64,000 nt of DNA from Hyphomicrobiales bacterium. GTDB taxonomy: Bacteria > Pseudomonadota > Alphaproteobacteria > Rhizobiales > Beijerinckiaceae. Where the stretch lies: positions 62,001 to 126,000 of the forward strand of contig JAQGKD010000113.1 in assembly GCA_028290285.1 (NCBI GenBank). Reading direction: 5' to 3'. Numbering within the stretch: the stretch's first letter is position 1; each line of letters opens with the position of its first letter. This document shows, piece after piece, positions 8,610 to 48,330 of this stretch. The notes below the pieces were generated by a model, which did not search any database, was not told where the DNA came from, and saw only the letters and a program-made list of their open reading frames with translations. Both the position numbers and the translations under genes were made by a program.

Positions 8610-9722
8610 TTATTCCGCAGCGCTGCCCTGCTTGAATCCACACCAGCGCTGCAGACGCGTGCCGACAATGTCGCCAATCGACCCCTCGACGAGGATCAGC
8701 AATCCCAGTCGGGCGCCGACGATCATGCCCAAGACAGCAATCGGCCAAGCCACGGACATAAGCGACCCCGCCGTGAGGCCCTGCCCGACCGTGCAGCCGC
8801 CAGCGAGGACTCCGCCGAACCCCATCAGCGCGGCGCCGAGGAGGTGCCGACGCATTTCGTGGTGATCGTCGAAAGCCTCCCAGCGAAAATTCCTGCCGAC
8901 TTGAGCCGAGAGGAAAGCGCCGAGCACGACGCCCGGCACCATCAGCACACCGAAGTCGAGCCACTCACCATTCCCGAGGAGGGTCGAGGACAAACCACGC
9001 GCGACCGGGGCGACAAAGGTCAGGCTTTGGGGGCGCGGCTGGCTGAAGTCATCGATCAGGACGCCGGTCGTGATCCAACCGGCGACAATGGCCACGCCAA
9101 GCACGAGTCCCGCCGACAGCAGGCGCGGAGATCGTCGCAGGCGCTTGTCGAAAGCAACGGCCAGGATGAGCCCGGCAGCGAGTGCGAGCACGAGAGGTGC
9201 GCGCACATCGCTTCCCAACCATCTGTTGGCGAGCCGCACCAGGGATCCAGGCTCAGGTCCCGGCATCTCCCAGGTGATCAACTCGAGCCACGCCAGCCTG
9301 ACATTGGAGAGCGCCCCTCTCAAAGTAGCGAGCGCGACGGCGCTGAAAACAACCATCGTAATCAGGCTGCGCAAGTCGCCGCCACCCATTCGAACGAGGC
9401 ATCCGAATGCACACGTGCCGACAAGCGCCATCCCCAGACCGAAGCAGAGCGAGCCGATGATCGTCGAAAGCCAGGCGATGCGCGGCGGCAGATAGGTCGT
9501 GGTCGCTTCGTCGAGCAAACCTGTGAGGATCAGGGCCTGGGTCCCGAGCAGCGCTACGGCGAGTGCGAGGCCGAACACCTTCATGCGCCGCCAGTCACCC
9601 CCGACGAGTGCCGACTCAATGGCGCCCAGCGAGCAGAGCTGGGCACGACTGACGGCAAAGCCGACACAGGCTCCTGCGCTCAAGCCGATAAGACCGGCCC
9701 ACGCGGCGGACAATGCCACCAT
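8610..9722 (-). CDS. soxT: YeeE/YedE family transporter SoxT
   Basis: A 370-residue polytopic membrane protein of the YeeE/YedE (sulf_transp) family with about nine to ten hydrophobic helices. The family's internally repeated cysteine motifs are seen as FAVSRAQLCSLGA near the N-terminus, GTCAFGCLVRMGGG near 105, and GGCTVGQGLTAGS near 315. These cysteines are thought to pass thiosulfate or sulfide through the pore by transient S-H-S bonding. GGAGGAA precedes ATG 9722. It is the third gene of a soxS-soxR-soxT unit and probably imports a sulfur species that feeds or signals to the pathway. Confidence 0.87.
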   Translation of the reverse strand: MVALSAAWAGLIGLSAGACVGFAVSRAQLCSLGAIESALVGGDWRRMKVFGLALAVALLGTQALILTGLLDEATTTYLPPRIAWLSTIIGSLCFGLGMALVGTCAFGCLVRMGGGDLRSLITMVVFSAVALATLRGALSNVRLAWLELITWEMPGPEPGSLVRLANRWLGSDVRAPLVLALAAGLILAVAFDKRLRRSPRLLSAGLVLGVAIVAGWITTGVLIDDFSQPRPQSLTFVAPVARGLSSTLLGNGEWLDFGVLMVPGVVLGAFLSAQVGRNFRWEAFDDHHEMRRHLLGAALMGFGGVLAGGCTVGQGLTAGSLMSVAWPIAVLGMIVGARLGLLILVEGSIGDIVGTRLQRWCGFKQGSAAE

Positions 9723-25117: not shown

Positions 25118-25346
25118 AATGAGCAGCAAAGCGGAGCGCGCACCTGTGCATCGATGGTTTCTCGGGACAAAGCCTGACGCCCGAACCATGGTTCAGTTTA
25201 TGTCTCGCGGAACCGCGACGTGCGGGCTAATTTTCTGGCGCTGGCGATTCCGCCTGGCGGCGCTTGCCGACTGCCCCAACCGGTTTGATCCATGTGGCAC
25301 TGAGCCCAGCTGCCGATGCCCTGAAAACGAAGGACCTGTGACATGA
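25118..25346 (+). CDS. Small hypothetical protein upstream of the methyltransferase
   Basis: A possible 75-residue reading frame from ATG 25118, with a purine-rich stretch upstream. It ends in ATGA overlap with the methyltransferase start, which favours translation. The product (MSSKAERAPVHRWFLGTK...) is basic with no recognised domain or HTH pattern. The frame extends upstream through the tRNA fragment, which weighs against the whole frame being a gene. Low confidence. Confidence 0.3.
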
Positions 25347-26668
25347 GCGATCTTGAGCACGCAAACCATCGGCAAAATCATGTTTCGGCGAGCAATGACG
25401 CGTCGGCCCAGACGATCCAAAATACTGCGGGGTGGCGACCAGAAGCAGAGGTTGCAAGAATCGAGCGCAACGGGCATTTTGCTAAGATGAGTGCGGATGA
25501 GCGATCTTTCCTCGAGTTCTTCGCCGGCGGCGGCATGGCCCGCGCCGGTCTGGGGCCGGCATGGCGGTGCGCGTTCGCCAACGACTTCGACGAGATGAAG
25601 GTCGAGACATACAAGGCGAACTGGGGCAACGGCGATATCAGGCACGGCGACGTGGGGAAGCTGATGCTCGACGACCTGCCGGCGGGCACCCCGGACCTTG
25701 CCTGGGCATCCTTCCCGTGCCAGGATCTCTCCCTTGCCGGCGACTGTCGCGGCCTGGGGCGCGAGCGCGACGACGCGCTGACGCGCTCCGGCACGTTTTG
25801 GCCGTTCTGGAAGCTGATGCGCGGGCTCGCCCAAGAGGGCCGGGCGCCCCGGACCATCGTGCTCGAAAACGTCTATGGGGCGCTAACCTCCCACGGCGGG
25901 AAAGACTTCGCGGCGATAGGCTCCGCCCTCTCGGGCTCCGGCTACCGCTTCGGGGCCGTCGTCATCAACGCCTCGGAATTTGTCCCGCAGTCGCGCCCGC
26001 GCGTGTTCTTCATCGCGATCCGCAAGGGGGAACATCTCCCGGCCGAACTGACGTGCCAGGGCCCGGACCCACGCTGGACCCCGGCAGCCCTGGTGATGGC
26101 GCATGCCGGGCTGTCGGCTGAGGCCAAGAAAAAATGGGTCTGGTGGAACATCCCGGCGCCCGCCGCCCGGAACATTATCTTCGCCGACATCGTCGAGGAG
26201 CGGCCGACCGGCGTCGAGTGGCACACGGCCGCCGAGACCAAGTACCTGCTCAGCATGATGTCCGACGTGAACCGCGCCAAGGTCGCCGCCGCGAAGAAGG
26301 CTGGCCGTTGCGTGGTTGGCGGCGTCTATCGCCGCACGCGCCCCGACGCGAACGGCGACAAGGTACAGCGGGCCGAAGTCCGCTTCGACGACATCGCCGG
26401 CTGCCTGCGTACTCCCGCCGGCGGGTCCTCCCGGCAATCCATTCTCGTGGTCGACGGGCCAAAGGTCCGCTCGCGTCTGCTGTCCCCTCGCGAGGCAGCC
26501 CGGCTCATGGGCCTCGATGACGAGTACATCCTGCCGTCCCGGTACAACGATGCTTATCATGTCTGCGGCGACGGTGTCTGCGTGCCTGTCGTCCGACACA
26601 TTGCGCAGCATGTCCTTGAACCGATCCTGGCGGCCACAACACCCGAGGTTCTCATAGCAGCGGAATGA
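25343..26668 (+). CDS. DNA (cytosine-5) methyltransferase
   Basis: A 441-residue C5-cytosine methyltransferase. Motif I is FLEFFAGGGMARAGLG (about 58), motif IV is the catalytic SFPCQDLSLAG (about 130), motif VI is LENVYG, motif VIII is QSRPRVFFI, and the C-terminal motif IX/X region contains RLLSPREAARLMGLDD. The variable target-recognition region lies between about 230 and 360. It is followed at once by a GIY-YIG nuclease and a Vsr-like nuclease, so it is probably the modification half of a type II system. The recognition sequence cannot be read from the protein. Confidence 0.93.
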   Translation: MSDLEHANHRQNHVSASNDASAQTIQNTAGWRPEAEVARIERNGHFAKMSADERSFLEFFAGGGMARAGLGPAWRCAFANDFDEMKVETYKANWGNGDIRHGDVGKLMLDDLPAGTPDLAWASFPCQDLSLAGDCRGLGRERDDALTRSGTFWPFWKLMRGLAQEGRAPRTIVLENVYGALTSHGGKDFAAIGSALSGSGYRFGAVVINASEFVPQSRPRVFFIAIRKGEHLPAELTCQGPDPRWTPAALVMAHAGLSAEAKKKWVWWNIPAPAARNIIFADIVEERPTGVEWHTAAETKYLLSMMSDVNRAKVAAAKKAGRCVVGGVYRRTRPDANGDKVQRAEVRFDDIAGCLRTPAGGSSRQSILVVDGPKVRSRLLSPREAARLMGLDDEYILPSRYNDAYHVCGDGVCVPVVRHIAQHVLEPILAATTPEVLIAAE

Positions 26669-26669
26669 A

Positions 26670-27476
26670 ATGGCCAAGAAAGCGACGTCTACGGAAACAA
26701 ATAAGCAAAAGAAATTGCGGGCGCCGCCATTCGAAACCGCCTCGCTCCGGGAGCAAATCAGCAAGTTCTACGAGACCCCCTATACGGACGCCTCAGGCAC
26801 GCAGAAGGCGGTCGGAAGCTACACTTGGGGCGTCTACCTTTTTTATGACTACGACGGAGAACCTATCTACGTCGGCCAGAGCTACGAAAAAATCGGCGGC
26901 CGCATCGGACGGCATATGACGAACCAGCGCACCGACGCGGTGGCGATGTCGGTACTGGACCCCTTTGAGGTCTGCGAGATCGCGATTTACCCACTTCCTG
27001 AGTTCGAGGGGATCAACAAGGACCATCCCCGATTTAAAGAGGCCCGCAAGCACCTGAACGCTCTTGAATACGCAGTGCACCAGGAGGCAATTGGGAAGAG
27101 CGCCTTCAAGGCGATTTTGAACGAGCAGATACCGAAAACGCCTCTGGACGCAGTACCGATCCCGACACCGATCCGCGGAAGGATCGTGTCAGACGATGTC
27201 TTGCGCCTTCGTGCACACCCGGACGTTCGCATCGCTCGCCGGGCACAGACCATTGCGAAGCTTGCTCAGGTCATTTCGGAGCGGGAACTCCGCGGCGATG
27301 GCTTGAGACGTGTCATCGTGGTGCAATCCGACCGGCTCGCTGCCCTTGCGAACAAGAGGTTCGTGGACCTCTATGGGAAAACAATCGCGCAGGACGCCAA
27401 AGAGGGCGGGTTGGACGGTGAGGATGGCGACGAGGACGACGCCGAGGTCAATGACGAGGTCAATGGCGAGACCTGA
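26670..27476 (+). CDS. GIY-YIG nuclease, probable type II restriction endonuclease
   Basis: A 268-residue protein with a GIY-YIG nuclease core: GVYLF (Gly54-Tyr56), IYVGQS (Tyr67), Arg78 and His82 in GGRIGRHM, and candidate Glu133 or Glu139 and Asn151 in the ALEYAVHQ-to-AILNEQ region. The Arg-x3-His spacing, and the Glu139-to-Asn151 spacing, fit Eco29kI-type restriction enzymes. A long C-terminal part ends in a very acidic tail (about 248-268). The gene starts 1 bp after the methyltransferase stop and overlaps the Vsr gene by 14 bp. Target site unknown; the assignment as REase rests on motif and position. Confidence 0.78.
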   Translation: MAKKATSTETNKQKKLRAPPFETASLREQISKFYETPYTDASGTQKAVGSYTWGVYLFYDYDGEPIYVGQSYEKIGGRIGRHMTNQRTDAVAMSVLDPFEVCEIAIYPLPEFEGINKDHPRFKEARKHLNALEYAVHQEAIGKSAFKAILNEQIPKTPLDAVPIPTPIRGRIVSDDVLRLRAHPDVRIARRAQTIAKLAQVISERELRGDGLRRVIVVQSDRLAALANKRFVDLYGKTIAQDAKEGGLDGEDGDEDDAEVNDEVNGET

Positions 27477-27888
27477 TCGGCTGAACCATGTGACCCACCC
27501 TGCACGTAGCGCCACCATGCGGGCCATCCGGTCGAAGGGCACTAAGCCGGAGATGGTCGTCCGCCGCCTGGCGCACGCCCTGGGCTTCCGCTACCGCCTC
27601 CACCGTGCCGACCTGCCGGGCAAGCCGGACCTCGTCTTCCTCGGCAGGCGCAAGGTTGTGTTCGTCCATGGCTGCTGGTGGCACGGGCACGAATGCGCCA
27701 GGGGTGCCCGCGAACCGGCAACGCGACGGGAATACTGGCTGCCAAAGATCCGACGGAATAAGGAGCGAGACGCCGCTGTAGAGGGTGCGTTAGCGGCAGC
27801 CGGTTGGAAGGTCCTCATCATCTGGGAGTGTGAACTTCGTGACCGCGATCATTTGGCAAAGCGATTAACGACCTTTCTTTCCACTTGA
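27463..27888 (+). CDS. Very short patch repair endonuclease (Vsr-like)
   Basis: A 141-residue Vsr-family nuclease. The start is ATG 27463 (MARPDRLNHV). Family sequence: MRAIRSKGTKPEMVVRRL, FRYRLHRADLPGKPDLVF with the catalytic Asp, VVFVHGCWWHGHEC with zinc-site residues, and WLPKIRRNKERD. Vsr nicks next to T:G mismatches that arise when 5-methylcytosine is deaminated, which explains its place behind a C5 methyltransferase. It overlaps the GIY-YIG gene and closes the plus-strand unit. Confidence 0.92.
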   Translation: MARPDRLNHVTHPARSATMRAIRSKGTKPEMVVRRLAHALGFRYRLHRADLPGKPDLVFLGRRKVVFVHGCWWHGHECARGAREPATRREYWLPKIRRNKERDAAVEGALAAAGWKVLIIWECELRDRDHLAKRLTTFLST

Positions 27889-27923
27889 TCCCGCATTCCT
27901 CGGTGCTTGCAACGCAAAGTCCC

Positions 27924-29654
27924 TCATGTTTTCTTGGCAGGCGGCTTTTTAATCGGAAGCTTCTTTGTAGCGACTGGCTTGGCGGCTAGGCTGGAGGCAG
28001 ACACCTTCGAATTCTTCTTTAGAACCGCTGTAAAATCGGAATCCTTCGCAATCTTGTCCGTAGCACCGGATTTCTTGAAGTACTTAATCAAATGCGCCAG
28101 TTCGTCGGCAATGTCAGATGGCTTTAGTGACGTCACGTTCAGCTTGCCTAGGGCCGCTCTGTGGACCGGCCGTGACTTATTCAGTCGCCATGCAAGTGAC
28201 ATCATAAGATGGTAACGGAGGTTGTTACGGTACAGTGCTTCAATTGAATTGCGCTCTTGCTTAAAGTGAGCGTCGACGGCGAAATACAGACGTGCACAAG
28301 TCTTGTAAATATCGAGGTCGGTCTGAGCGTCGAACATCTCATCATAAGATCCAGTCATTAATGTAGTCGGCCTGCCCCGCGCGTCGTGCGGGCGCTCCAG
28401 AAGTACCGCAATAACCGACTGGGCAAGCCGTTCCATGCCGAGAATCGAATCTGCGGATTTCCCTTTATTGCGCCAGTAATCTCTCCGGCGGTCATAATAA
28501 ATACCGAGTTGCTCCAGAAAGTCTTCAATCTTCCGCTGGAATGGCTCCGTCGCGTGCAACGACGCTGGCCTGATACCGGTCTGAGAATTTGTCGCCTTAA
28601 TCACTCGATCGCGCAGCGTGTTTTCGACGATTTCCAGAACACGGACCTGCACAGCCCGCTTGTCGTCCGAACCGCCGCGTGCAAAGAACTGATAAATCTC
28701 GTGTGAGGTCTGTAGGCCGTTGACAACCAGCGGATTTTTAATCGTCAGCGCATTGTCCTGTGCCCCGGCGTCCTCGGCCAAAATGGTGATCCCATTGTTC
28801 AACCACCAGAAGTCCGCTGCGTCGGTCGTGTCCGAAAGAGTCGCGCCCATTTCCTTGTTCACAGAGGCATTTCGGTTGTAATCTCGAACGTTAAACTCGA
28901 AGAGTGAGTCGATAATCTCACCATCGTCCGAAATAAACTCATAATAGTCCCTAAGCTTAGCAAGAATAACGTAGCCCTTGCCGTGGGACACAGGTGATTT
29001 TTCGTACCGCAGCTTCCTGATATTGAGGTTTTGTTTCTGCGCCTCTTGATAAAGTCTTTTGGCGTCCCACAGCTCGGCTTTACAGGTGGCATTCGGATGA
29101 GCCTTCTGCACAGCCTTGACCAGCGTCGGGACAAGCGCGGTGACCTTGTCGTTTCCGGCCTTGGCCAGCGTTGCGTATATGACGTGAACGGTGATCGTTG
29201 GGAACTGGGCAGCAAGCTCAACGACCTTTTCTCGATATGTCCCAAATTTCTCACAAACTGCATCGTTGTAGATGGCGGATAAAACTGCAGCGTCTGCGTC
29301 CAAGGCCATCAACTGGGGAAGCGCGGTCACCAATTTTGTAATCGCCGACTCCTTGAACCCCATATCAAGCTTGGATTGAATAACGAACAAGTCGACGTCG
29401 ACCGGCTTCTTGAAGAAATCCATTTCGGTGTCAGTCGCAATAAGCGCTCGGTTTACAAACATGTACAAACTGTCGATACCGCCATCGTCTTGACCATCGA
29501 CGATGCCATCTTGGATCTGATCGAAGGTTAATCCATAGCGCTTAAGTATTGTCTCAGCCGTGAATCGTTCGAATGCATCCCCCTCAGTCATTCCTGCGCC
29601 GTATCCCGGCATGTTTTTGCTGAGGTTATTCTTGATCAGGGCGGCTTCGGGCAT
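27924..29654 (-). CDS. AIPR family abortive-infection protein
   Basis: A 576-residue protein of the AIPR family (abortive infection phage resistance, PF10592). The N-terminal part reads GDAFERFTAETILKRYGL and GQDDGGIDSLYMF, reminiscent of nuclease-type cores. The family block FWWLNNGITILAED and NPLVVNGLQTSHEIYQFF lies near 275-325. The extreme C-terminus is Lys/Ala/Pro-rich. Base composition is clearly lower in GC than the flanking genes, a sign of separate transfer. It converges with the Vsr gene and probably adds an abortive layer to the adjacent restriction unit; that link is inference. Confidence 0.85.
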   Translation of the reverse strand: MPEAALIKNNLSKNMPGYGAGMTEGDAFERFTAETILKRYGLTFDQIQDGIVDGQDDGGIDSLYMFVNRALIATDTEMDFFKKPVDVDLFVIQSKLDMGFKESAITKLVTALPQLMALDADAAVLSAIYNDAVCEKFGTYREKVVELAAQFPTITVHVIYATLAKAGNDKVTALVPTLVKAVQKAHPNATCKAELWDAKRLYQEAQKQNLNIRKLRYEKSPVSHGKGYVILAKLRDYYEFISDDGEIIDSLFEFNVRDYNRNASVNKEMGATLSDTTDAADFWWLNNGITILAEDAGAQDNALTIKNPLVVNGLQTSHEIYQFFARGGSDDKRAVQVRVLEIVENTLRDRVIKATNSQTGIRPASLHATEPFQRKIEDFLEQLGIYYDRRRDYWRNKGKSADSILGMERLAQSVIAVLLERPHDARGRPTTLMTGSYDEMFDAQTDLDIYKTCARLYFAVDAHFKQERNSIEALYRNNLRYHLMMSLAWRLNKSRPVHRAALGKLNVTSLKPSDIADELAHLIKYFKKSGATDKIAKDSDFTAVLKKNSKVSASSLAAKPVATKKLPIKKPPAKKT

Positions 29655-31495: not shown

Positions 31496-31945
31496 TCATC
31501 CTTCCATGCAAAGTTGGCGTTCTTGCTTGCGACGGCGCACTAGGCCCGGGAGCGTGATGCCGCCGGCCGTCGTCCATTTCAGCAGCTCGTCGCAGGCCGC
31601 GGCGTCACGCTCGTTCAGCCGACGGGCAAAAGTGGACTTGCAGAAGGCGCCGACGCCTACGTTGTAGGAGAAGCTGACCACGGCGGCGCGGCGTGTATCT
31701 GAGAGCGGGACACGCAGGCAGGCGTTCACACCCTCGTTGAACTCCTCGAGGCGGACGCCGAGCATGGCCTGGCATTCGCCCGTCGTATGTCGATCGCCCA
31801 TCCGAACGTTCCTCGTCTCGCCGAAGCAGACGGTTGGGATACCGACGGGATCGCGATATGCGACGGTTCGAAGCCCCTCGAACCCTCCCACGCACGCAAT
31901 GCACAGCGCCGCCCATCCGGCAGCTTTTTTCTTGGTGGTCATCAC
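31496..31945 (-). CDS. Phage endolysin, T4-type lysozyme (GH24)
   Basis: A 149-residue muramidase that cuts the MurNAc-GlcNAc bond of peptidoglycan. The family triad E-x8-D-x5-T is complete: Glu23, Asp32 and Thr38 in GFEGLRTVAYRDPVGIPT. The N-terminus (AAGWAALCIACVGG) is weakly hydrophobic and resembles a signal-arrest-release anchor, so export without holin passage is possible. The start overlaps the holin stop as ATGA. Confidence 0.9.
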   Translation of the reverse strand: MMTTKKKAAGWAALCIACVGGFEGLRTVAYRDPVGIPTVCFGETRNVRMGDRHTTGECQAMLGVRLEEFNEGVNACLRVPLSDTRRAAVVSFSYNVGVGAFCKSTFARRLNERDAAACDELLKWTTAGGITLPGLVRRRKQERQLCMEG

Positions 31946-32160
31946 TCGTCAGTCCCAGGTTGCTTCAGAATGCGAGCGCCGACGATGGCCATCGACATGA
32001 CGACAGAGAGCGCGGCGAAGATCGGTGCTGGCAGGACGTCCTGAAAGGCTGGCCAGGCAGCGTAGAGCCCGCACACTGCGCCCCAGAACAGAGCGACCCG
32101 GATGCTCCAAAGGCGCCAGAACATCCCCCGGAATTCGGGGATGAGTTTAAAACCGAACAT
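31942..32160 (-). CDS. Putative holin
   Basis: A 72-residue protein started at ATG 32160 (MFGFKLIPEF). Two hydrophobic helices (VALFWGAVCGLYAAW and PIFAALSVVMSMAIVG) are joined by a short proline turn. Small size, position directly before the lysozyme with translational overlap, and the N-terminal KLIPEFRGMFWRLWS pattern fit a phage holin family. Annotation is by position and topology. Confidence 0.7.
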   Translation of the reverse strand: MFGFKLIPEFRGMFWRLWSIRVALFWGAVCGLYAAWPAFQDVLPAPIFAALSVVMSMAIVGARILKQPGTDE

Positions 32161-32180
32161 TGCGGACACCCTTCGGGCAT

Positions 32181-32207
32181 AAAAAAAGGCCCGCGGTGAA
32201 GCGGGCC
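32181..32207 (-). terminator. Intrinsic terminator between tail and lysis modules
   Basis: On the minus strand GGCCCGC, a 6-nt loop and GCGGGCC are followed by seven T residues. It follows the last tail gene and lies just upstream of the holin. Lysis genes therefore need read-through, antitermination or their own promoter. Confidence 0.8.
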
Positions 32208-32230
32208 GACTGCAGCTCATGCGGATCAGA

Positions 32231-32599
32231 TCAGGCGAACGCCTCGTCGACCTGCGCATGCGTGAAAATTGTTGGAGGGCTTGCCGAGATCGCGGCGCAA
32301 ACCTCGCGCTCTTTGGCGAAGCAGGCCTGGACGTGTCCGGCCACGGCGAGCGCGATAGGCAGCAGCTCGTCTCTCGTGAGCGAGACGAAACCGGCGGGGC
32401 CCTTAAACTGAATTGCGGTGCCCTCCGGCGAGTTCGAGAGGAAGGTCACCGCGCCCGTGATCAGCGCCTGGCTCTCTCGATCCGTGCTGAGCGCCATGCC
32501 ATTGGCGAGAACGCCGCCGACCTCCTTGCGCCAGCGCACGTCTGCGGCATAGGCCAGCAGGACTTCTGGCGAGACACGTTTGCTAAGCTTTAACAGCAA
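32231..32599 (-). CDS. DUF4376 domain phage protein
   Basis: A 122-residue protein. The second half matches DUF4376 (LITGAVTFLSNSPEGTAIQFK, VSLTRDELLPIALAVAGHVQACF), a domain found at the ends of phage tail-fibre assembly proteins. It overlaps the preceding gene by 17 bp and is the last gene of the tail block before the terminator. A tail-fibre chaperone role is likely but unproven. Confidence 0.75.
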   Translation of the reverse strand: MLLKLSKRVSPEVLLAYAADVRWRKEVGGVLANGMALSTDRESQALITGAVTFLSNSPEGTAIQFKGPAGFVSLTRDELLPIALAVAGHVQACFAKEREVCAAISASPPTIFTHAQVDEAFA

Positions 32600-32987
32600 G
32601 ACTGACCTCCTGTCGCAGATAGGCAGGATGGGAAAAGGCGATGACGTAGTTCCCTGGCGTTTCGAAGGAGATATCGAGTTCGCTGGTCGTATCCATCACG
32701 ACTGTCCCGGCGTCGCCGCTGACGATTGTACCTTCTGGAATGCCGGTGAATGTTACCGCCTGCCCCACAGTGGCTGTGCTGGGTCCAGTCAGGGGGATCG
32801 ATTGGCGAAGGATAACCGTCGGCCGGTCATCGAAGAGAACGACGCCAATACGATCAGGGGTGAACGTCTCTTCGATCCGTATCCAGCCCATGCCGCTTGC
32901 ATCGAGGAAGTCGGTATAGTCCTCGGCTGCGATGGTGACGCATTGCTCAATTTGGAGGGTATTTTTATCGAAAATGACGATCATCAT
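32583..32987 (-). CDS. Hypothetical tail-associated protein
   Basis: A 134-residue protein of mainly beta character (SIPLTGPSTATVGQAVTFTG, ELDISFETPGNYVIAFSHP) resembling an Ig-like phage domain in its C-terminal half. It lies between the receptor-type proteins and the DUF4376 gene. No family is identified; a fibre-assembly or decoration role is inferred from position. Confidence 0.65.
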   Translation of the reverse strand: MMIVIFDKNTLQIEQCVTIAAEDYTDFLDASGMGWIRIEETFTPDRIGVVLFDDRPTVILRQSIPLTGPSTATVGQAVTFTGIPEGTIVSGDAGTVVMDTTSELDISFETPGNYVIAFSHPAYLRQEVSLAVKA

Positions 32988-32993
32988 TCGATC

Positions 32994-33464
32994 CTAGTTA
33001 TGGAAGATGACGTACGCAACGCTCGAAGGATACGGATAAAGTGTCCCGCTAAAGTACACCCTGCTCAGCAGGATACGGAACTTGTCATTGAATATTTCTC
33101 CGCCGCAGCCAACTTGGCACCCCGTCCCGCTGCCTAGTGACGTTGGCTGGTACATAGGCCCGTACCAATCACTTCCGAGAAGCGGGTCATTGATCGAGAG
33201 GAGGAATTTCGGCACGGTTGCGAAAGTCTTTCCAAACGTGACTTCAAAGACCATCGGGGTTGAATAACCATAGAAGTTGCTCGCGCTCGAAGCCGCAAAG
33301 GATGCGAACGGGACAATCCCAGATTGGAAGATCCCGCCATAACCTCCTGTATTGATATCGAAAAGCAGATTGATATCAGCAGCGGAATCGACGTCGAACC
33401 CCGGCTTGGAAAGCTTCATGCGCGGGGCGCCTGAGTTCCGGTCCAACAAGAGCCGGTTTGTCAT
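32994..33464 (-). CDS. Receptor-type tail protein, paralogue C
   Basis: A 156-residue protein, third of three related genes. The shared head is NRLLLDRNS....MKLSKPGFDVDSAADINLLFD; then VPFASF and a TFATVPKFLL segment align with the VGSF and LGYVP blocks of the two upstream paralogues. The C-terminus ends VAYVIFHN, matching YYVIYRKQAF in the long paralogue. Probably a tail-tip or fibre-end receptor-binding module. Its GC content is lower than that of the virion genes upstream. Confidence 0.7.
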   Translation of the reverse strand: MTNRLLLDRNSGAPRMKLSKPGFDVDSAADINLLFDINTGGYGGIFQSGIVPFASFAASSASNFYGYSTPMVFEVTFGKTFATVPKFLLSINDPLLGSDWYGPMYQPTSLGSGTGCQVGCGGEIFNDKFRILLSRVYFSGTLYPYPSSVAYVIFHN

Positions 33465-33472
33465 CTTCGATC

Positions 33473-33985
33473 CTAAAAGAGCGGGTTACGAAAGACAGAA
33501 ATGTTGGATGGGTTAGCCTTCGTGAGGAACATGCGATCAGTGGCAACATCATAATACCATGACCCATTATTCTGATAAGAGTTAAACGTCCCGTTGGCGT
33601 TATAATAGTGCGAGTATTCACCATCATTCGGCTTGCCTGTCGCGAGGCGCGACCGGAGGGCTGCGGTATCCGCGTACACAAACCGCAGGAGGCTATCCAC
33701 TTGGCAGGTATATTGCGGAACGAAACCGAGGCTATGATTGAAGATAAAGTCCCACTGGTAGAGATCCCAATAACTTCCATCGGATGCAGTTTGCCGGAAA
33801 AGGAACGCACCGCGGGTAAAGCTGCCGACTGTGAGCCTGGCAAACGGGCGAGAGTTGTATTTGGACGGATCAAAAAGAAAGTGGTCCGTGTTTGAATCTA
33901 TCCGCGCGTCATATCCGGGCTTGCTGATCCACATGCCGGGCGTTGCGGTGTCCGGGTGTTTCCCGATGATGATACGGTCGGCCAT
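33473..33985 (-). CDS. Receptor-type tail protein, paralogue B
   Basis: A 170-residue protein, second of three. The head RIIIGKHPDTATPGMWISKP followed by GYDARIDSNTDHFLFD aligns with the C-terminal domain of the preceding glycine-rich protein, as do LTVGSF and HSLGFVPQY. The aromatic C-terminal half (SYQNNGSWYYDVATDRMF) is the most divergent part. It is separated from paralogue C by 8 bp and from paralogue A by 1 bp. Confidence 0.7.
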   Translation of the reverse strand: MADRIIIGKHPDTATPGMWISKPGYDARIDSNTDHFLFDPSKYNSRPFARLTVGSFTRGAFLFRQTASDGSYWDLYQWDFIFNHSLGFVPQYTCQVDSLLRFVYADTAALRSRLATGKPNDGEYSHYYNANGTFNSYQNNGSWYYDVATDRMFLTKANPSNISVFRNPLF

Positions 33986-33986
33986 C

Positions 33987-35414
33987 TTAGAACGCCTGTT
34001 TCCGGTAGATCACATAGTAGATCGTCCACGTCCGTGGTGCGCCCTGTGAGTTATTCCCAGACAGGTTGCGGACCCAGCTTTGCGCGCGGACCTGCGTCGA
34101 TGAGATGTTAAGGCGCAGGAAGGCCGTACTATCCCCGGAGAAGTAAGGCCCCCAATAGAGAAGCGCCTGACCGCCCGATTGCATTGTCTTTCGGTCATAG
34201 TATCCACCGGCAGGCCAGATATCGCTTCCGGCCGGTAGAGCGTCCCCATTGCCCTGCGCGTAGAACTCGACGAATGGCACGTATCCGAGCGTCGGATAAG
34301 ACACGAGTTGGTTGACCTCAGTCCCTTGCTGCGCGGTCGTGCGGTGGACGAAAGACCCGACCTGATGAATGGGCATGATCTCACCCCAGTCCGAATTGAA
34401 CAGGAGCTTTTCCTGATCAACGGGGTTCGACGCCGCATTGTAGCCGGTCTGTGAAATGCGGATGCCATAGTTTGCACCCGGTATCTTGCCGATGAGGATT
34501 CGACAGGGACCGGGGAGCGGAGGTGGCGCTTTCCCGCTGACTGTCGCGTGTCCAGATCCGGTGCCAACGCCTGCTGTCGCTGTCGGGCTATCGGCGCTCG
34601 CATGGCCTGCTGATGCGCCAGCACCTGACGCGATAGGGCGCGCTGTCGCAGTCGCCGTTGCTATCCCCGCTGCGTAACCATTGCCGGAACCGGGCGGGAG
34701 CGCAATGGCCTGGCCCATAGCTGATGCCGTGGCGGCGCCCGCGGAAACCCCTACGGCGAATTTAAGGGACTGCCCAGAGGCTACCGCAGCGCCGCTGCCG
34801 GATGATGCGCCAGTACCCGTTGTGTATGTGACCGGCGTGTAGGTGATGATGATAAGGCCGGATGAGCCGGAGCGCAGACAGCCCGCGCCGCCGCCATAGG
34901 AGCCGCCCGCTCCACCATTACCACCGCCACCGCCGCACCCGTACGCACCCCATTGCGTCCCAGACCCGCCTGGGCTGCCTTCCGCCGCGCCCGTACCGCC
35001 GAAGCCCGCATCGCCCGCACCGCCCGAGGTACTGACCCCGCTGAAGCCATTGCCGTGCGGGCCGGCTGCGCCACCGCCCCCCTTGGCCGCGTTGCCGCCG
35101 GAGTATATGAGCGAGCCGATACCAGACGCCGCCGCGCCGCCTGTGCTGGTGGCGGTTCCTTTCGCGCCGCAGAGGGAGGCGGCGAAAGTCGAGGCTCCGA
35201 ACCATGTATCGGAACCGCCTGTTCCGACCAAATAGGAGAGCGTGGAGCCTGGGGTGACAGCCAGGTTAACTTCTTGCGAGTAGGCACCGCCACCGGTGCC
35301 TGTTGCATTGCTGGAGGATGCGGCAGTTGAGCCAATCGCCTCAACCTTGTCGATCTTGGAGCAGTCCGAAGGAACCGTCCAGGAGGCGCCGCTGGTTAGT
35401 ACAATCTGCGTCAT
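33987..35414 (-). CDS. Glycine-rich tail fibre/adhesin with C-terminal receptor-type domain (paralogue A)
   Basis: A 475-residue protein. Residues 1-40 form an attachment domain (IVLTSGASWTVPSDCSKIDK), then a glycine-rich region to about 190 with GGGGGNGGAGG-type runs. Next is an Ala/Gly/Ser/Thr region (200-300) of loosely repeated short units. The C-terminal domain (from about 302, CRILIGKIPGANYGIRISQT) is the one shared with paralogues B and C. Glycine-rich stretches resemble those of T-even receptor-binding adhesins. It directly follows the J-type tail-tip gene. Confidence 0.78.
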   Translation of the reverse strand: MTQIVLTSGASWTVPSDCSKIDKVEAIGSTAASSSNATGTGGGAYSQEVNLAVTPGSTLSYLVGTGGSDTWFGASTFAASLCGAKGTATSTGGAAASGIGSLIYSGGNAAKGGGGAAGPHGNGFSGVSTSGGAGDAGFGGTGAAEGSPGGSGTQWGAYGCGGGGGNGGAGGSYGGGAGCLRSGSSGLIIITYTPVTYTTGTGASSGSGAAVASGQSLKFAVGVSAGAATASAMGQAIALPPGSGNGYAAGIATATATARPIASGAGASAGHASADSPTATAGVGTGSGHATVSGKAPPPLPGPCRILIGKIPGANYGIRISQTGYNAASNPVDQEKLLFNSDWGEIMPIHQVGSFVHRTTAQQGTEVNQLVSYPTLGYVPFVEFYAQGNGDALPAGSDIWPAGGYYDRKTMQSGGQALLYWGPYFSGDSTAFLRLNISSTQVRAQSWVRNLSGNNSQGAPRTWTIYYVIYRKQAF

Positions 35415-38400
35415 TTAGTCAGCAACGCGCAGGTAGCCGCCATCAAGGCTGATCTCGAATTTTCCATCCGAGCTTTTGACCGTGCCCGCCGTGATCGTCC
35501 CGACATTGGATGAGATGGCAGAAAGGACTGTCACGTCTATGGCCGCGGCCTTGATAGCCCCTGCCTGGATCATGCCTGCAGTGATCGAATTGGCTGCAAT
35601 CTCAGCGACTGCTGCTGGCGTCCATGCGCCACTGACGTATTTATAGAGCTGATTGTCGGCGGTGTTGTAGACGAGAATAACGCCTGTGTACCCAGTGGGA
35701 TTTGGGAGCCCGGCGACGATGCCGACTGCGGTTAGCGACGAGGCAAAACTAAGCGCGTCGATTGTACCCGGTGAAACGCCGATCCCGAGCGCATCCGTGG
35801 TCAGGATAAGCCCCGGCGTCGTCACCAGAACCTGAGTCCACGGGCCATTGTTGCCCGCGGCAGTCACCCCGCGGATTTGCAGCAGCAGGTCACGATCTCC
35901 AAAACCCGCGACCTGAAACGCAGAATCATAGCCTGCGGGATAAATCGTGGACCACGTTTCCCCATTATCCAGCGAGACTTGCGCCGTATAGGTCTGGGCC
36001 GAAGGGTCAGGTTGCCATGCCGCCGAAAGGGTTAGGGTCAAACCGGATTGCGTCAGGCTGGCAAAGAGGCCGACGATCATGCCAGGCACAGCCGGCAGGG
36101 TCAGGGTGGGCGCATCGGGCAGCGGTGGGACCGAAGAATCATCGATCTCGTAGACTTCTGGCGCATCGTTGACGAGATCAAGCGAGAACCGCCCCTCGCC
36201 GCCATTTGATAGGCGCGTGACCAGACCGAGGAATTCTCGCGGCTGACCGATGGAGAAGGCCGCGCTAGGCATCTCCGACACGTCCGAGCGGCCCAGCACG
36301 TCGGAGAGCAGCATGCCCTGCTGCGCCTCGACGGTCGCGAGATCGGTGGCGGACAGAATGGCGATGTCGGCGGTGGCGCCCTGCGTGACAAGCACAGGGC
36401 CAAACGATGCGCCATTGGCCGCCTTCAACCGCACGTAATGATTGCCGGTCCCCCAGGTCGCCGGCGCGTGGAAGGTGAGGCTCCTCGCGGTGAGGTTGTA
36501 GGCGTCGACCCGGAACGACTGGCCCCATGTGCCCGGCATCTCGGTTTGCACCGCCACCAGGTCGCCCCGGCGCAGCAGCTTGCCCTCGGCTTCGATATCG
36601 AGCGAAAGGACGACGCGCCGGTAACGGTTCACCGCGGCGAGGTACCGAGCGATGAGGGTCGCCTGTCTTCGATTCGTCACGCCCTCGATCTGCACGCGAG
36701 CGGGATGAATCAGATCCGCGAGGCTCGCGGCCGAGGCCACGTCGGCCCGGCTCCATAGCTCCTCCTCGAGGTACTCGACAATGGTCCCGTCGCTCGTCTG
36801 ATCGTCCTGCAGCGTGTAGACGATGCTCGGTGAACCACGGATGATCTCGAAATCTGTCAGAAGAATGCGCGGCAGCAAACGCGGCTCGTCGCGGATCATC
36901 GAGAAGCGATCCCAGACATAGACCGGCTGGGCGAGCATGGAGCGCAGGATCGTCGTCAGGGCGTCCAGGACGGTCGCTTCGGCGACGAAGCGATGATTGA
37001 ACGTATCGCCGCGCGCGTCGGCGTCAGCGGCCTTGGCGGCCATCGTGGGAAGGTCGATGTTGTCGCGAGACTGGTTGCCGCCGTAGTCGGGGTGGTGCCA
37101 CATGTCGACGGCGGCCCAGACGGGGTTCTGCGTCGCCTGCAGATCCCACGCGGTGCCGGTCCAGACCGGGATCTTCCGGGTGGCGATGACGTAGATCTGC
37201 TGCGAGTTGTATTGCGAGAGCTGCTTGTCAGCAACGATCTCGATGGCGAGCTGCGTCACCTTCGGACGTGAGTTGCCTCCCTGCAGGTAGAGACGCGCGC
37301 CGCCCCAAACCACCGAGTTCGTGCCGTTCGAGGTGATAACGGCATCGGTCCGGCCGACCCGGATCTGTACGCGCCCGGCGTTCGGCAGAGAGAACTTCTC
37401 GGTCTTGCGAACGGCGACCTTCGTTTCCATGGTGTAGGTCTGAGAAAAGGCCGTGATCCAGAGCGCGCCGGTGCCGCCGATCGGCACGCCGGTGTCGGAG
37501 ATCATGCGGTACTGCGCGATGACGGTCGTGGAGGCCGGGCGCGTGTTTGTCCCCTCCATCGTGAAGCTGCCACCGGGCCAGAGCAGATCGATCGCGACCT
37601 CTTGGCCGACCGACGCCGGCGGATTGACGATGAACGGGCCGACGTACTGCGTTCCTCCGCTGGGCGTTGGCAGCTCCTGCCCCGTCACGTCGGGGGAGAC
37701 GGCGACGTTCGTCGGGAACAACGTGACCGGCTCGCCCGGGCCCGCGACCTGGTACTTGAACGTCGGAAAGTCCGGGAGCGTGCCGTCGGCCGCCGTCCAG
37801 ACGGGCGTCCCGCTAATCCCTATTTCCTCGATCGAGAACTCGCCAGCGCCGAGGCAATAGAGACCGTGGAAGGTCTGATCCTGCCCGGAGTAGTCAGCCC
37901 AAGGCGGCGAGGCGAAGTCGGGATTGAACTTCAGCCGTCCATAATGAACCGGGATTGGCTGCTGCGGGCGGGCCTTGTTGCCACTCAGCGAAATGGAAAG
38001 CGGATCGTCGCCATCCTTGCTCTTGGCGCCCGACTTCGGCGCCAGGAAGTGACTGATGAGGAACGAGCCGCCCGCGATGATGAGGGCGGATGTAACGGCC
38101 AAAGCAGTCGCGCCGAACCCGGCAGAGGCAAGGAAGCCGCCTGGCCCCGCCACGAGAGTGGCAAGCGTGATGACTGCAATGGTCGCGAGAAGCGCGCCGA
38201 CTGACCTTGAGCCCCCACCGCCGCCATCCAGTGGCTGCGACAGAAAGACGATCTGATCGCTAGGCTTGATGCGCAGCGACCAATCCTTACGGAGGACCGG
38301 GCGCATGTCGCCGGCCACGATCCGTGCACACACGATCGGCAGGCCACGCGCTTGCCAACCGGAGCGCTTCACGAAATTCGAGATGGTTTCGCCCCGCCGA

Positions 38401-38492
38401 GCCCGCATGCGCTCCGCCGGCTCAAGGCGCGGGAGGACCGTCAAGGTGATCTCGGCGGGGCTTCTCCGCTTGGCGTTCGTGGCACGTGTCAT
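35415..38492 (-). CDS. Phage tail tip/host specificity protein J (TipJ)
   Basis: A 1025-residue central tail-tip protein of the lambda gpJ family. The N-terminal ubiquitin-like part (about 1-90) is followed by a glycine/alanine hydrophobic region (95-150). The TipJ core contains IPVHYGRLKFNP, the LGAGEFSIEEIGISGTPV region, and AVDMWHHPDYGG with NIDLPTMAAKAADAD further on. Fibronectin-like and C-terminal domains follow. It forms the tip that contacts the receptor and gates DNA exit. The gene overlaps the NlpC/P60 gene by 4 bp. Confidence 0.9.
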   Translation of the reverse strand: MTRATNAKRRSPAEITLTVLPRLEPAERMRARRGETISNFVKRSGWQARGLPIVCARIVAGDMRPVLRKDWSLRIKPSDQIVFLSQPLDGGGGGSRSVGALLATIAVITLATLVAGPGGFLASAGFGATALAVTSALIIAGGSFLISHFLAPKSGAKSKDGDDPLSISLSGNKARPQQPIPVHYGRLKFNPDFASPPWADYSGQDQTFHGLYCLGAGEFSIEEIGISGTPVWTAADGTLPDFPTFKYQVAGPGEPVTLFPTNVAVSPDVTGQELPTPSGGTQYVGPFIVNPPASVGQEVAIDLLWPGGSFTMEGTNTRPASTTVIAQYRMISDTGVPIGGTGALWITAFSQTYTMETKVAVRKTEKFSLPNAGRVQIRVGRTDAVITSNGTNSVVWGGARLYLQGGNSRPKVTQLAIEIVADKQLSQYNSQQIYVIATRKIPVWTGTAWDLQATQNPVWAAVDMWHHPDYGGNQSRDNIDLPTMAAKAADADARGDTFNHRFVAEATVLDALTTILRSMLAQPVYVWDRFSMIRDEPRLLPRILLTDFEIIRGSPSIVYTLQDDQTSDGTIVEYLEEELWSRADVASAASLADLIHPARVQIEGVTNRRQATLIARYLAAVNRYRRVVLSLDIEAEGKLLRRGDLVAVQTEMPGTWGQSFRVDAYNLTARSLTFHAPATWGTGNHYVRLKAANGASFGPVLVTQGATADIAILSATDLATVEAQQGMLLSDVLGRSDVSEMPSAAFSIGQPREFLGLVTRLSNGGEGRFSLDLVNDAPEVYEIDDSSVPPLPDAPTLTLPAVPGMIVGLFASLTQSGLTLTLSAAWQPDPSAQTYTAQVSLDNGETWSTIYPAGYDSAFQVAGFGDRDLLLQIRGVTAAGNNGPWTQVLVTTPGLILTTDALGIGVSPGTIDALSFASSLTAVGIVAGLPNPTGYTGVILVYNTADNQLYKYVSGAWTPAAVAEIAANSITAGMIQAGAIKAAAIDVTVLSAISSNVGTITAGTVKSSDGKFEISLDGGYLRVAD

Positions 38493-46617: not shown

Positions 46618-48330
46618 TTATGTGGTCAGGGTGACGAGCTGCGCGTTCGGGAAGCGCGTGCGGTAATAGGAGAAGGATTTTACATGCCCGTTACTCTCGG
46701 TCCCTGTTCCTCCCCCGCCAATTCTCATTTGCGTAACCGGAGGGACTGCTCCACTGGGCGTGCCTACAACAGCAGCAGCGCCGTTAAGTGAACCGGCATA
46801 GTCGTTCACCTTATATGTAAACGCGGCTTTGAAGTTCGGGTGGGCCGCAAGGTTGTATGCACCAAGAGTATTATTCACAATTAGCGGACCGCCTGAATTC
46901 GCAACCATGTCGAGGCCGGTGCCTGTATGATACACGAGCATGCGGTTGTTGGCCGTGTTGTCATCCACTGAGAACGAGTAGGCCCCACCCTTAACGATTT
47001 CGCCCTCGATGACTATCGTCCCTTCCAGCGGGTTCCAGATCGAGCTAAACGCCGGCCCCGTGATGCTCGCGCTGTCTGCCGCGCGTGTGACTGACGCGTT
47101 TTGCGTGAAGATCAGACTCGTGGCGAACGAGCCGGTCTCATACTGCGAACCCCAGCGATAGATGCCGCTGGTGCCGTCACCTGAATAGCTGGCAACGCCA
47201 TCGGCACTCGCCATGTACACGGAACAAAAACCAGAAGCCGTCCCTACGCTTGTTTTAGTTGCACTTATCCGCCACCAACCGTTACCATCGTTTTCGACAG
47301 TGAACCCATCGGGGGCGTTTCCGGCAACCCCACCAATAGCTCCAGTAGTCAGGTTGACGTACTTGCCGTAGCTGGTGCCATTTATCTCAATGGCGAATAG
47401 CGCCCATGTACGTTCACCTGCCTTCAAGTAGGTTGAAGCGGTGTAGGCAGTAGCTGCGGTGTTTGGGAACCCTGATGCATTGAATACAGCGTGCTGGCCC
47501 GTTGTCGCAGCTTCGATCATCTTAGACGCCGTTAACGTCCCATCAGGCGCTATTGCTGCGTTCGCCGTGACCGGACTGTTGAATTTCGTCCACGAGGCGG
47601 TGCTATGATCGGCGGAGTTAAGAACGACGTTCGTCCGGCTTTCTTCGATCAGCAATCCTTTTGCCGCGAGGGTGACGGGATCGAAGTCGAACCTCGGGCC
47701 GTAATAGGCGGCGCTCGTGGTCGCAACGTAGGGGCGCGGGGTCGTCTGGTAGGTGACGGCTTCGAGTTGAGCTTCGTACAGGTCTACCTGATCGCCAGAG
47801 TTCGCTAGGAACACAATGAGAAAAGGTGACGCGACGTTTGCCGAAAGCGTTGAAAGCCGCTGCCACGAAGATGTAGGCTCAAGGGGAACGGACGTATTCG
47901 CAGGTGTACGAAGTTCGATCAGCCCTGTTTTGGTGCGTACCCGTGCCCAAACTGACGCGATATGGTTTCCGCTCGTGCTGGGCCGCTGATAGATAAACGC
48001 ACCGCCCGCCGTGGCTGTAACAGTGAATGCGTTTGTTCCACCGTCCGGGTCAGCAATGCCGGCGGCAACCGTGACTGTACTTTTAGTCCACGCCGCATTC
48101 GTAAAGTCATTGCTCCACAACAACAGATTATTCGGAGCCCACGTCAGCTTGCCGGTGCTGTCATACTGTGTCGCGAGGCCGGGACGCGAGAACGTGACGC
48201 CCTTGGCAAGAAGATCCGCGCCAGTGGACATGGTGGAGAACGGCAGGGAGAGGGCGGGTCCAGCAGCGAGCGCTGACCCCGCAGCAGCCCATGGAAGGAA
48301 TGGCAGCGTAAGCCCGAGCCCCAGCCTCAT
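46618..48330 (-). CDS. Large spike/fibre protein with carbohydrate-binding-like domains
   Basis: A 570-residue protein starting with a hydrophobic, signal-like stretch (MRLGLGLTLPFLPWAAAGSA). Two jelly-roll modules repeat the same pattern: a NNLLLWSNDFTNAAWTKSTV or NVVLNSADHSTASWTKFNS opening, then a central GWWRIS or SWQRLS strand. Each closes with an aromatic Y-AQLE or GSQYETG strand. The C-terminal third (from about 430) looks like a LamG/concanavalin-type beta sandwich. Location between capsid and connector genes suggests a capsid spike that binds host glycans. Confidence 0.7.
   Translation of the reverse strand: MRLGLGLTLPFLPWAAAGSALAAGPALSLPFSTMSTGADLLAKGVTFSRPGLATQYDSTGKLTWAPNNLLLWSNDFTNAAWTKSTVTVAAGIADPDGGTNAFTVTATAGGAFIYQRPSTSGNHIASVWARVRTKTGLIELRTPANTSVPLEPTSSWQRLSTLSANVASPFLIVFLANSGDQVDLYEAQLEAVTYQTTPRPYVATTSAAYYGPRFDFDPVTLAAKGLLIEESRTNVVLNSADHSTASWTKFNSPVTANAAIAPDGTLTASKMIEAATTGQHAVFNASGFPNTAATAYTASTYLKAGERTWALFAIEINGTSYGKYVNLTTGAIGGVAGNAPDGFTVENDGNGWWRISATKTSVGTASGFCSVYMASADGVASYSGDGTSGIYRWGSQYETGSFATSLIFTQNASVTRAADSASITGPAFSSIWNPLEGTIVIEGEIVKGGAYSFSVDDNTANNRMLVYHTGTGLDMVANSGGPLIVNNTLGAYNLAAHPNFKAAFTYKVNDYAGSLNGAAAVVGTPSGAVPPVTQMRIGGGGTGTESNGHVKSFSYYRTRFPNAQLVTLTT

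Follow-up and report, generated by a model that had tools for sequence, protein, structure and literature searches.

Three tandem paralogous domains behind a J-type tail gene as a candidate composite receptor-binding tip in phages of Hyphomicrobiales

In a prophage of a Hyphomicrobiales bacterium, the gene for a lambda J-like tail-tip protein is followed by three genes whose products carry one paralogous domain each. What can be read in the sequences is the homology of the three domains, their place after J, their number of three per array, their classes by position, their fusion in some phages, the tight spacing of their genes and a constant base next to a variable head. From these features, and by analogy with other tail tips, we propose that the three domains may together form a composite receptor-binding tip that caps the J fibre, probably in a 1:1:1 ratio, a proposal to which we give an even chance.

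Results

Tail-tip locus

The window, by which we mean the whole 64,000-nucleotide stretch of DNA that was analyzed, contains the tail-tip end of the prophage as its region of interest, with the genes described here on the minus strand. Terminase, portal, protease, capsid, connector, major tail and tape-measure genes were assigned with PHROG and Pfam, as were the DUF1833, NlpC/P60 and J-like genes that come after the tape-measure gene (5' to 3', minus strand). On the 3' side of J, the order is genes for proteins of 475, 170, 156 and 134 residues, followed by the DUF4376, holin-like and lysozyme genes.

35415..38492, minus strand: J-like tail-tip or central fibre protein, 1025 aa (PHROG 469, E 1e-72)
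33987..35414, minus strand: P1 gene, 475 aa, with N-terminal part, glycine-rich block, linker and C-terminal domain 1
34845..35174, minus strand: glycine-rich block of P1, residues 81-190, 40% Gly
33990..34505, minus strand: domain 1 (position-1 type), P1 residues 304-475 (held-out position-1 HMM, 69.3 bits)
33473..33985, minus strand: P2 gene, 170 aa, domain 2 (held-out HMMs: position 2, 35.5 bits; position 1, 33.6 bits)
32994..33464, minus strand: P3 gene, 156 aa, domain 3 (held-out HMMs: position 3, 55.7 bits; position 1, 60.9 bits)
32583..32987, minus strand: small gene after the trio, 134 aa (weak PHROG tail matches, E 0.06 and 0.14)
32231..32599, minus strand: DUF4376 protein, 122 aa (Pfam DUF4376, E 4e-19; PHROG 10508, a tail-fibre family, E 9e-29)
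31942..32259, minus strand: holin-like protein (PHROG 1356 "holin", E 1e-9)
31496..31945, minus strand: endolysin (Pfam Phage_lysozyme, E 4e-40)

The trio thus lies directly downstream of the lambda J-like gene, and the tail-tip location given in a preliminary description of this DNA is correct. The J-like protein also matches PHROG 31 "central tail fiber J" (E 2e-68), its residues 57-894 aligning with profile positions 138-963 of 1565, and residues 962-1014 match PHROG 1101 "tail protein" (E 1.5e-6). Since the match to PHROG 31 ends at position 963 with 131 residues of J remaining, the window J seems to be without the usual long C-terminal receptor part of the lambda type. It ends in ...SSDGKFEISLDGGYLRVAD, and many upstream open reading frames (ORFs) of the family end similarly by eye. 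Among the matches listed for J (25 of 164 phage records), the alignment reaches window residue 784-911, and the J relatives of phages JWX and HTN2 have C-terminal ends that differ from that of the window J.

None of the trio proteins matched a Pfam family at E ≤ 0.1, the H-type lectin domain included. Against PHROGs there was a single chance-level match (P2, E 0.24), against NCBIfam only P2 to choline-binding proteins, again at chance level (E 0.046-0.11), and a sequence search of the PDB gave nothing below E 0.09. The genes at the place of the trio are annotated as hypothetical in the records examined. For the 134-residue protein we found no Pfam family at E ≤ 0.1, no NCBIfam family and no similarity to the gene at the same place in Rhizobium phage RHph_N1_10, and the match to its counterpart in RHph_Y2_11 is weak (E 0.012). 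The DUF4376 protein matches the C-terminal half of L043:8615-9340 (E 2e-9) and does not match the gene at the same place in RHph_N1_10.

Homology of the three domains

Domain 1, P2 and P3 are paralogous domains, and their similarity is well past chance. With BLASTP inside the window, domain 1 matches P2 (E 1e-5) and P2 matches P3 (E 9e-5), while domain 1 against P3 gave no match. Comparison of position profiles built from 31 arrays gave E 2.8e-23 (1 against 2), 1e-20 (1 against 3) and 4e-22 (2 against 3), compared with E 0.055-0.87 for 18 column-shuffled profile controls; six of 37 arrays were omitted from the profiles, four with fused genes and two with exchanged order. It is because these profiles match that we accept the relation between domains 1 and 3. 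Within the window alone the evidence for homology is modest, and it becomes clear once relatives are added.

The preliminary description had called the C-terminal domain of the fibre protein and the two stand-alone genes downstream paralogous, which the profiles (E 1e-20 to 3e-23) bear out, and had ascribed one motif layout to all three, of which a part stands. By eye, R, S-(K/Q)-x-G-(Y/F)-(D/N), LF and VP are common to the three domains; the remaining motifs are incomplete, with GK present in two of the three (P3 has DR there), LLF reading FLF in P2, and VGSF and LGYVP weak in P3, where they appear as SGIV and FATVP.

Number of domains and gene layout

Loci were picked by sequence motif without regard to copy number, and an iterated HMM was run over 62 of them, with domains counted at i-E < 0.05. 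Dropping eleven same-locus repeats, seven of them identical and four (L085, L087, L088 and L091) judged repeats by equal coordinates and scores, gave 51 non-redundant loci. Three domains per array were found in 48 of the 51, 37 of them by HMM alone and 11 with weaker support for one of the domains, and none has a four-domain array; the loci are akin, the 37 arrays forming 22 groups, and the 48 do not represent independent events. The weakest third domain among the 37 HMM-only arrays has an i-E of 0.0063. Two HMM domains and a third gene are found in L043, L047, L059 and L060; when these divergent third genes are grouped with those of L046 and L062, the position-3 profile is the best match, with E 2e-6 and 2e-7 against a position-3 profile made without L046 and L062. 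Two HMM domains and an N-terminal third are found in seven fused loci (L049, L067-L070, L089 and L090). The exceptions to three are a lone copy (L041), a lone 84-residue fragment (L045) and an array cut by the contig end (L064).

The same three domains are distributed over genes in several ways: among the 48 arrays there are 37 with three single-domain genes, two split as 2+1, one split as 1+2 and eight in a single protein, the fused forms having ~450-550 residues. Six more fused loci lie beyond the 51 (L098, L099 and L101-L104). Neighbouring genes are tightly packed, with a median gap of -1 base at all three junctions and gaps within 10 bases in 39/44, 38/40 and 29/32 cases at successive junctions, figures that include one J-less locus, offset by a junction, and three large overlaps that are artefacts of the start codon chosen.

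Assembly factors are often encoded by small genes that follow fibre genes, and the DUF4376 protein encoded two genes further on belongs to a PHROG tail-fibre family, so one or more of the trio might be a tail-fibre chaperone that stays outside the virion. We regard this as very unlikely given that the three proteins are homologous by profile and that their homologues are fused into one polypeptide in several phages.

Positional classes

The copies fall into classes by position. In leave-group-out comparisons, the HMM of the matching position gave the highest score for 91 of 111 copies (37 expected by chance). Of the 107 copies with a BLAST hit in another locus, close relatives not excluded, 97 have their top hit at the position that they themselves occupy. 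Among the possible orders, 1-2-3 fits best in 27 of 37 loci (chance 1/6) and in 14 of 22 groups, and the three copies fall into three different classes in 24 of 37 loci (chance 0.22). Another order is preferred in 10 of the 37, though the margin is under 6 bits in seven of these; positions 1 and 2 are clearly exchanged in L039 and L040, with one of each still present, and L044 prefers 1-3-2 by 12.6 bits. The window itself prefers 1-2-3 by 18.8 bits, yet P3 taken alone scores better as position 1 than as position 3, and P2 favours position 2 over position 1 only marginally.

In the fused proteins, the N-terminal thirds of 13, examined together, are closest to position 1 (E 1e-5 against 0.15 and 0.012 for the other two), also with slightly smaller profiles (E 4.7e-5 against 0.25 and 0.014). 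For their middle domain the best match is position 3, and the last domain matches positions 1 and 2 equally.

These results bear on the preliminary description's view of the stand-alone copies as spare or alternative receptor domains that recombination could swap onto the fibre. The copies are indeed paralogous and in tandem. Spares should, however, vary in number and be interchangeable, and a constant three with distinct classes therefore speaks against such a role; in the fused forms all three domains sit in one chain, so none of them is spare. A screen for long arms saw the glycine-rich arm of P1 nowhere else in the 51 arrays, and P1 is thus not, as a general rule, a fibre awaiting swaps of the other copies. 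Direct repeats of at least 16 nt in the window region amount to four imperfect pairs of 16-21 nt. We have therefore rejected swappable spares, which keep a barely appreciable probability in our estimate. The same description had offered assembly as separate tip proteins as its alternative, and the sequences favour that side of it.

Upstream J proteins, base and head

An ORF of more than 250 residues lies just upstream of the array in 50 of the 51 loci, the fragment locus L045 being the one without. A relation to the window J at E < 1e-5 was found for 11 of these 50 ORFs by phmmer and for 37 after iteration within the set; 13 were unlinked to it by the iterated search, including those of L074 (326 aa), L092 (260 aa) and L041.

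Within the domains, divergence is uneven. Over 11 pairs of related loci, some of which share a locus, the first 45 residues have a median identity of 82, 69 and 71% at positions 1, 2 and 3, compared with 48, 58 and 47% for the remainder; the contrast is absent at position 2 in the pairs L055/L056 and L002/window. In the closest trio of phages (RHph_N1_10, RHEph10 and RHph_Y2_11), J is 87-96%, the bases 73-93% and the heads 55-83% identical, and in more diverged pairs J has diverged as much as the heads.

A base more conserved than the head would also suit structural collar or plug proteins that surround the J tip and have no receptor role, and in mycobacteriophage Mysterious, as far as the available text of the preprint goes, accessory heterotrimers are baseplate parts. 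We consider such a role improbable here, since the window J seems to be without its usual C-terminal receptor part, which makes the trio the next candidate, and since in the three closest phages the heads differ more than J does.

AlphaFold2 modelling of P3, using an alignment with 41 other rows, gave a pLDDT of 78.6 and a pTM of 0.65, with strands at residues 5-8, 15-19 and 33-36, a predicted N-terminal β-hairpin and a β-rich head. The model of a fused 507-residue relative (pLDDT 41.8) was too poor for use. A Foldseek search of the PDB with the P3 model returned nothing at E ≤ 0.001, and the 50 matches listed were mostly antibody chains. Seven fold matches at E ≤ 0.001 were found in BFVD, six nameless and one "uncharacterized", and two phage proteins named H-type lectin matched weakly (E 0.03 and 0.23).

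Single-domain proteins of more than 205 residues other than P1 carry other extensions or insertions (L042 and L074), are start-codon artefacts (L059 and L060) or belong to a cut fused protein (L064). P1 residues 1-295 had no match in the phage collection at E ≤ 0.01, and the N-terminal part of P1 showed no similarity to a glycine-rich ORF of L002.

Relatives and distribution

Direct searches of the phage collection matched P2 to two Rhizobium phages (E 0.02) and P3 to seven (E 0.01-0.3), and found nothing for domain 1. Three tandem homologues after a J-type gene are present in RHph_N1_10, RHEph10, RHph_Y2_11 and RHph_Y5A and in one IMG/VR contig. P2 is 28% identical to the second copy of RHph_Y5A (E 2e-9), and domain 1 is 42% identical over 100 residues to the first copy of L002.

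By HMM, with at most 10 candidates scored per genome in the larger samples, so that weak copies may have escaped, the family occurs in 14 of 397 genomes sampled from the window's order, in one of 385 from its class (the window's own genome) and in three of 398 from its phylum, all three from the window's order; the samples overlap. The HMM search found no member of the family in 36 further genomes of the genus to which the window belongs. Motif scans gave 24 viral loci and 18 genome loci, the latter in 12 named genera: Mesorhizobium, Devosia, Nitratireductor, Chelativorans, Pelagibacterium, Phyllobacterium, Maritalea, Rhizobium, Aurantimonas, Agrobacterium, Allorhizobium and Jiella. Placement in Hyphomicrobiales was confirmed for two of the 18, and we take the remaining ones to belong to the same order.

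In Rhizobium phage 16-3, the plus-strand ORFs of the first 50 kb, the h gene included, contain no domain at i-E < 0.5. For Achromobacter phage JWX, comparison with the family gave profile E values of at least 0.07 and one weak HMM hit (i-E 0.029), which do not establish a link. Its genes after J encode two mutually related domains (E 3e-5) and a third recognizable by eye only.

Discussion

The reading that we prefer is that the trio would be three different subunits of one receptor-facing cap at the end of a trimeric J fibre, with J stopping where the fibre stops. The first ~45 residues of each domain, with a predicted β-hairpin and an SKPG-x-D segment, would form the constant docking base, and the rest of each domain would be the β-rich variable head. 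One domain of each type would be needed, so that a pseudo-threefold heterotrimer would sit on the J trimer, most likely at 1:1:1, and its genes would be translated as a coupled row. In the window prophage, position 1 would add a glycine-rich arm, which, as a guess, may be an extra contact surface. Presence in the virion, contact with J, the 1:1:1 stoichiometry, receptor binding and coupled translation are all parts that we infer.

We favour a composite cap because the number three is constant, class follows position, the genes are tightly spaced, the domains are fully or partly fused in some phages and J is seemingly without a receptor part. Against it count the incomplete link of the upstream ORFs to the window J, the P3 of the window scoring as position 1 and its P2 only marginally as position 2, the 10 of 37 loci out of order, the equal match of the last fused domain to positions 1 and 2, heads that in the more diverged pairs differ no more than J, the missing base-head contrast at position 2 in two pairs, the negative PDB searches by fold and by sequence, the kinship of the loci and the weaker evidence for one domain in 11 of the 48 arrays. 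As a statement about siphophages of Hyphomicrobiales in general, that a trimeric J fibre carries a single-copy pseudo-threefold cap with one each of three paralogues from one to three genes, the proposal is more tentative, and we would put it at about one chance in three.

The strongest competitor is a set of three separate homotrimeric tip proteins, stacked or individually mounted, that bind different receptors or sugars. Many phage adhesins are homotrimers, the heads are divergent at all three positions, and some copies have extensions or insertions of their own (P1 of the window, L042 and L074), which would all fit. Separate adhesins would be expected to come and go singly, however, whereas a constant three, mostly with one per class, is more easily explained by joint assembly, as is the fusion of two or three domains into one chain. 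We therefore think it unlikely, though it keeps roughly a quarter of the probability.

Among known systems, the fused form has a counterpart in PHROG 21060, a family with no assigned function, which the three-domain protein of L099, the one fused form scanned, matches over its whole length (E 2e-113). In the window each domain has a gene of its own and one of the products bears a glycine-rich arm, and none of these proteins matches phrog_21060 at E ≤ 1; of the 42 sequences in alignment A5 of the family, five match phrog_21060 (best E 0.00099). The Sinorhizobium phages StopSmel, Aussie, HMSP1-Susan and phi2LM21 have proteins 35-40% identical to L099 over its length, and the three-domain protein comes directly after a J-type gene in StopSmel; in HMSP1-Susan and phi2LM21 a single small gene separates the two. 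In the accessible part of the phi2LM21 report, ten structural genes have an assigned function, p48 and p51 being tail fibres, and the three-domain gene p50 is absent from those ten (PMC5537653).

RHph_N1_10, RHEph10, RHph_Y2_11 and RHph_Y5A share with the window three tandem homologues directly after a J-type tail gene, and in the first three of these phages small genes and then a lysozyme gene follow the trio as they do in the window. In RHph_Y5A, unlike the window, a lectin/glucanase-like gene precedes the lysozyme gene. Unlike these Rhizobium trios, the window P1 alone bears a glycine-rich arm, and the two genes after the trio have weak or no sequence similarity between these four phages and the window. 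Among the titles and abstract openings listed in literature searches, none describes this three-domain array.

The nearest working parallel is mycobacteriophage Mysterious, in which gp35, gp36 and gp37, encoded by three genes with consecutive numbers, assemble into a heterotrimer, with gp35 consisting of an N-terminal β-hairpin arm and a β-sandwich and gp36 being similar, according to the portion of the preprint available (PMC13252515). Six of these heterotrimers ring the baseplate there, unlike the cap that we propose for J. T5 and lambda also have their receptor-binding part at the tip of a central fibre: in T5 the protein pb5 sits where the trimeric pb4 fibre ends (PMC10038345), and in lambda the part belongs to gpJ (PMC10721106). 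To judge from the excerpts of these papers, T5 uses one receptor-binding protein and lambda a part of gpJ, whereas the window has three paralogues and a shorter J. Similarly, gp38 of T2- and S16-type phages, in the sections of the source at hand, sits at the tip of the trimeric gp37 fibre and has glycine-rich motifs (PMC12892980). Its hypervariable receptor loops protrude from polyglycine, whereas in the window a glycine-rich block precedes one of three domains, and the comparison uses, on the window side, glycine content (40% over 110 residues).

If the composite cap is real, the symmetric J trimer would end in an asymmetric tip whose three faces differ, and a threefold fibre can then be capped by three paralogues instead of three copies of one. 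A likely receptor-binding device would thereby be named for many rhizobial and related phages, and the constant three across separate, half-fused and fused forms makes its stoichiometry directly testable.

Other genes in the window

A 570-amino-acid protein is encoded among the head genes, and several genes adjoin the lysis genes:
46618-48330, minus strand, 570-aa protein with similarity to PHROG 5939 ("tail protein")
within 25343-29654, plus strand, C5 cytosine methylase, for which DruM is the best match in PADLOC
within 25343-29654, plus strand, GIY-YIG protein
within 25343-29654, plus strand, Vsr endonuclease
within 25343-29654, minus strand, AIPR/AbiU-type abortive-infection protein

Despite its similarity to a tail family, the 570-aa protein is encoded between the genes for capsid and head-tail adaptor, and it starts with a hydrophobic, signal-like stretch; it is perhaps a head appendage. 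The region at 25343-29654 is a possible defence island.

Variants and neighbours of the three-domain array

In one related locus (L074 5069-5998), the first gene of the trio codes for 309 aa, and the domain in its product appears to carry a long insertion. Fused three-domain proteins, ∼95% identical, were observed at three sites on a single Rhizobium oryziradicis scaffold (L085, L087, and L088), presumably three related prophages.

In Achromobacter phage JWX (L111 10508-11493), J is followed by two small genes. They contain two domains that are paralogous to each other (E 3e-5), and a third such domain was recognised by eye. Comparison with the trio family did not establish a link; the JWX genes are possibly a parallel case.

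Locus L043 encodes a single 241-aa protein (8615-9340). Its C-terminal half is similar to the DUF4376 protein of the window (E 2e-9), and its N-terminal half resembles only weakly the product of the preceding window gene (E 0.08); the protein is perhaps a fusion of two neighbours in the window. The family phrog_18216 is matched both by the gene following the trio in RHph_N1_10 (L003 7173-7658) and by a gene located after J in Pseudomonas phage HTN2 (L112 10495-10953), and this neighbour may therefore be more widely spread than the trio itself.
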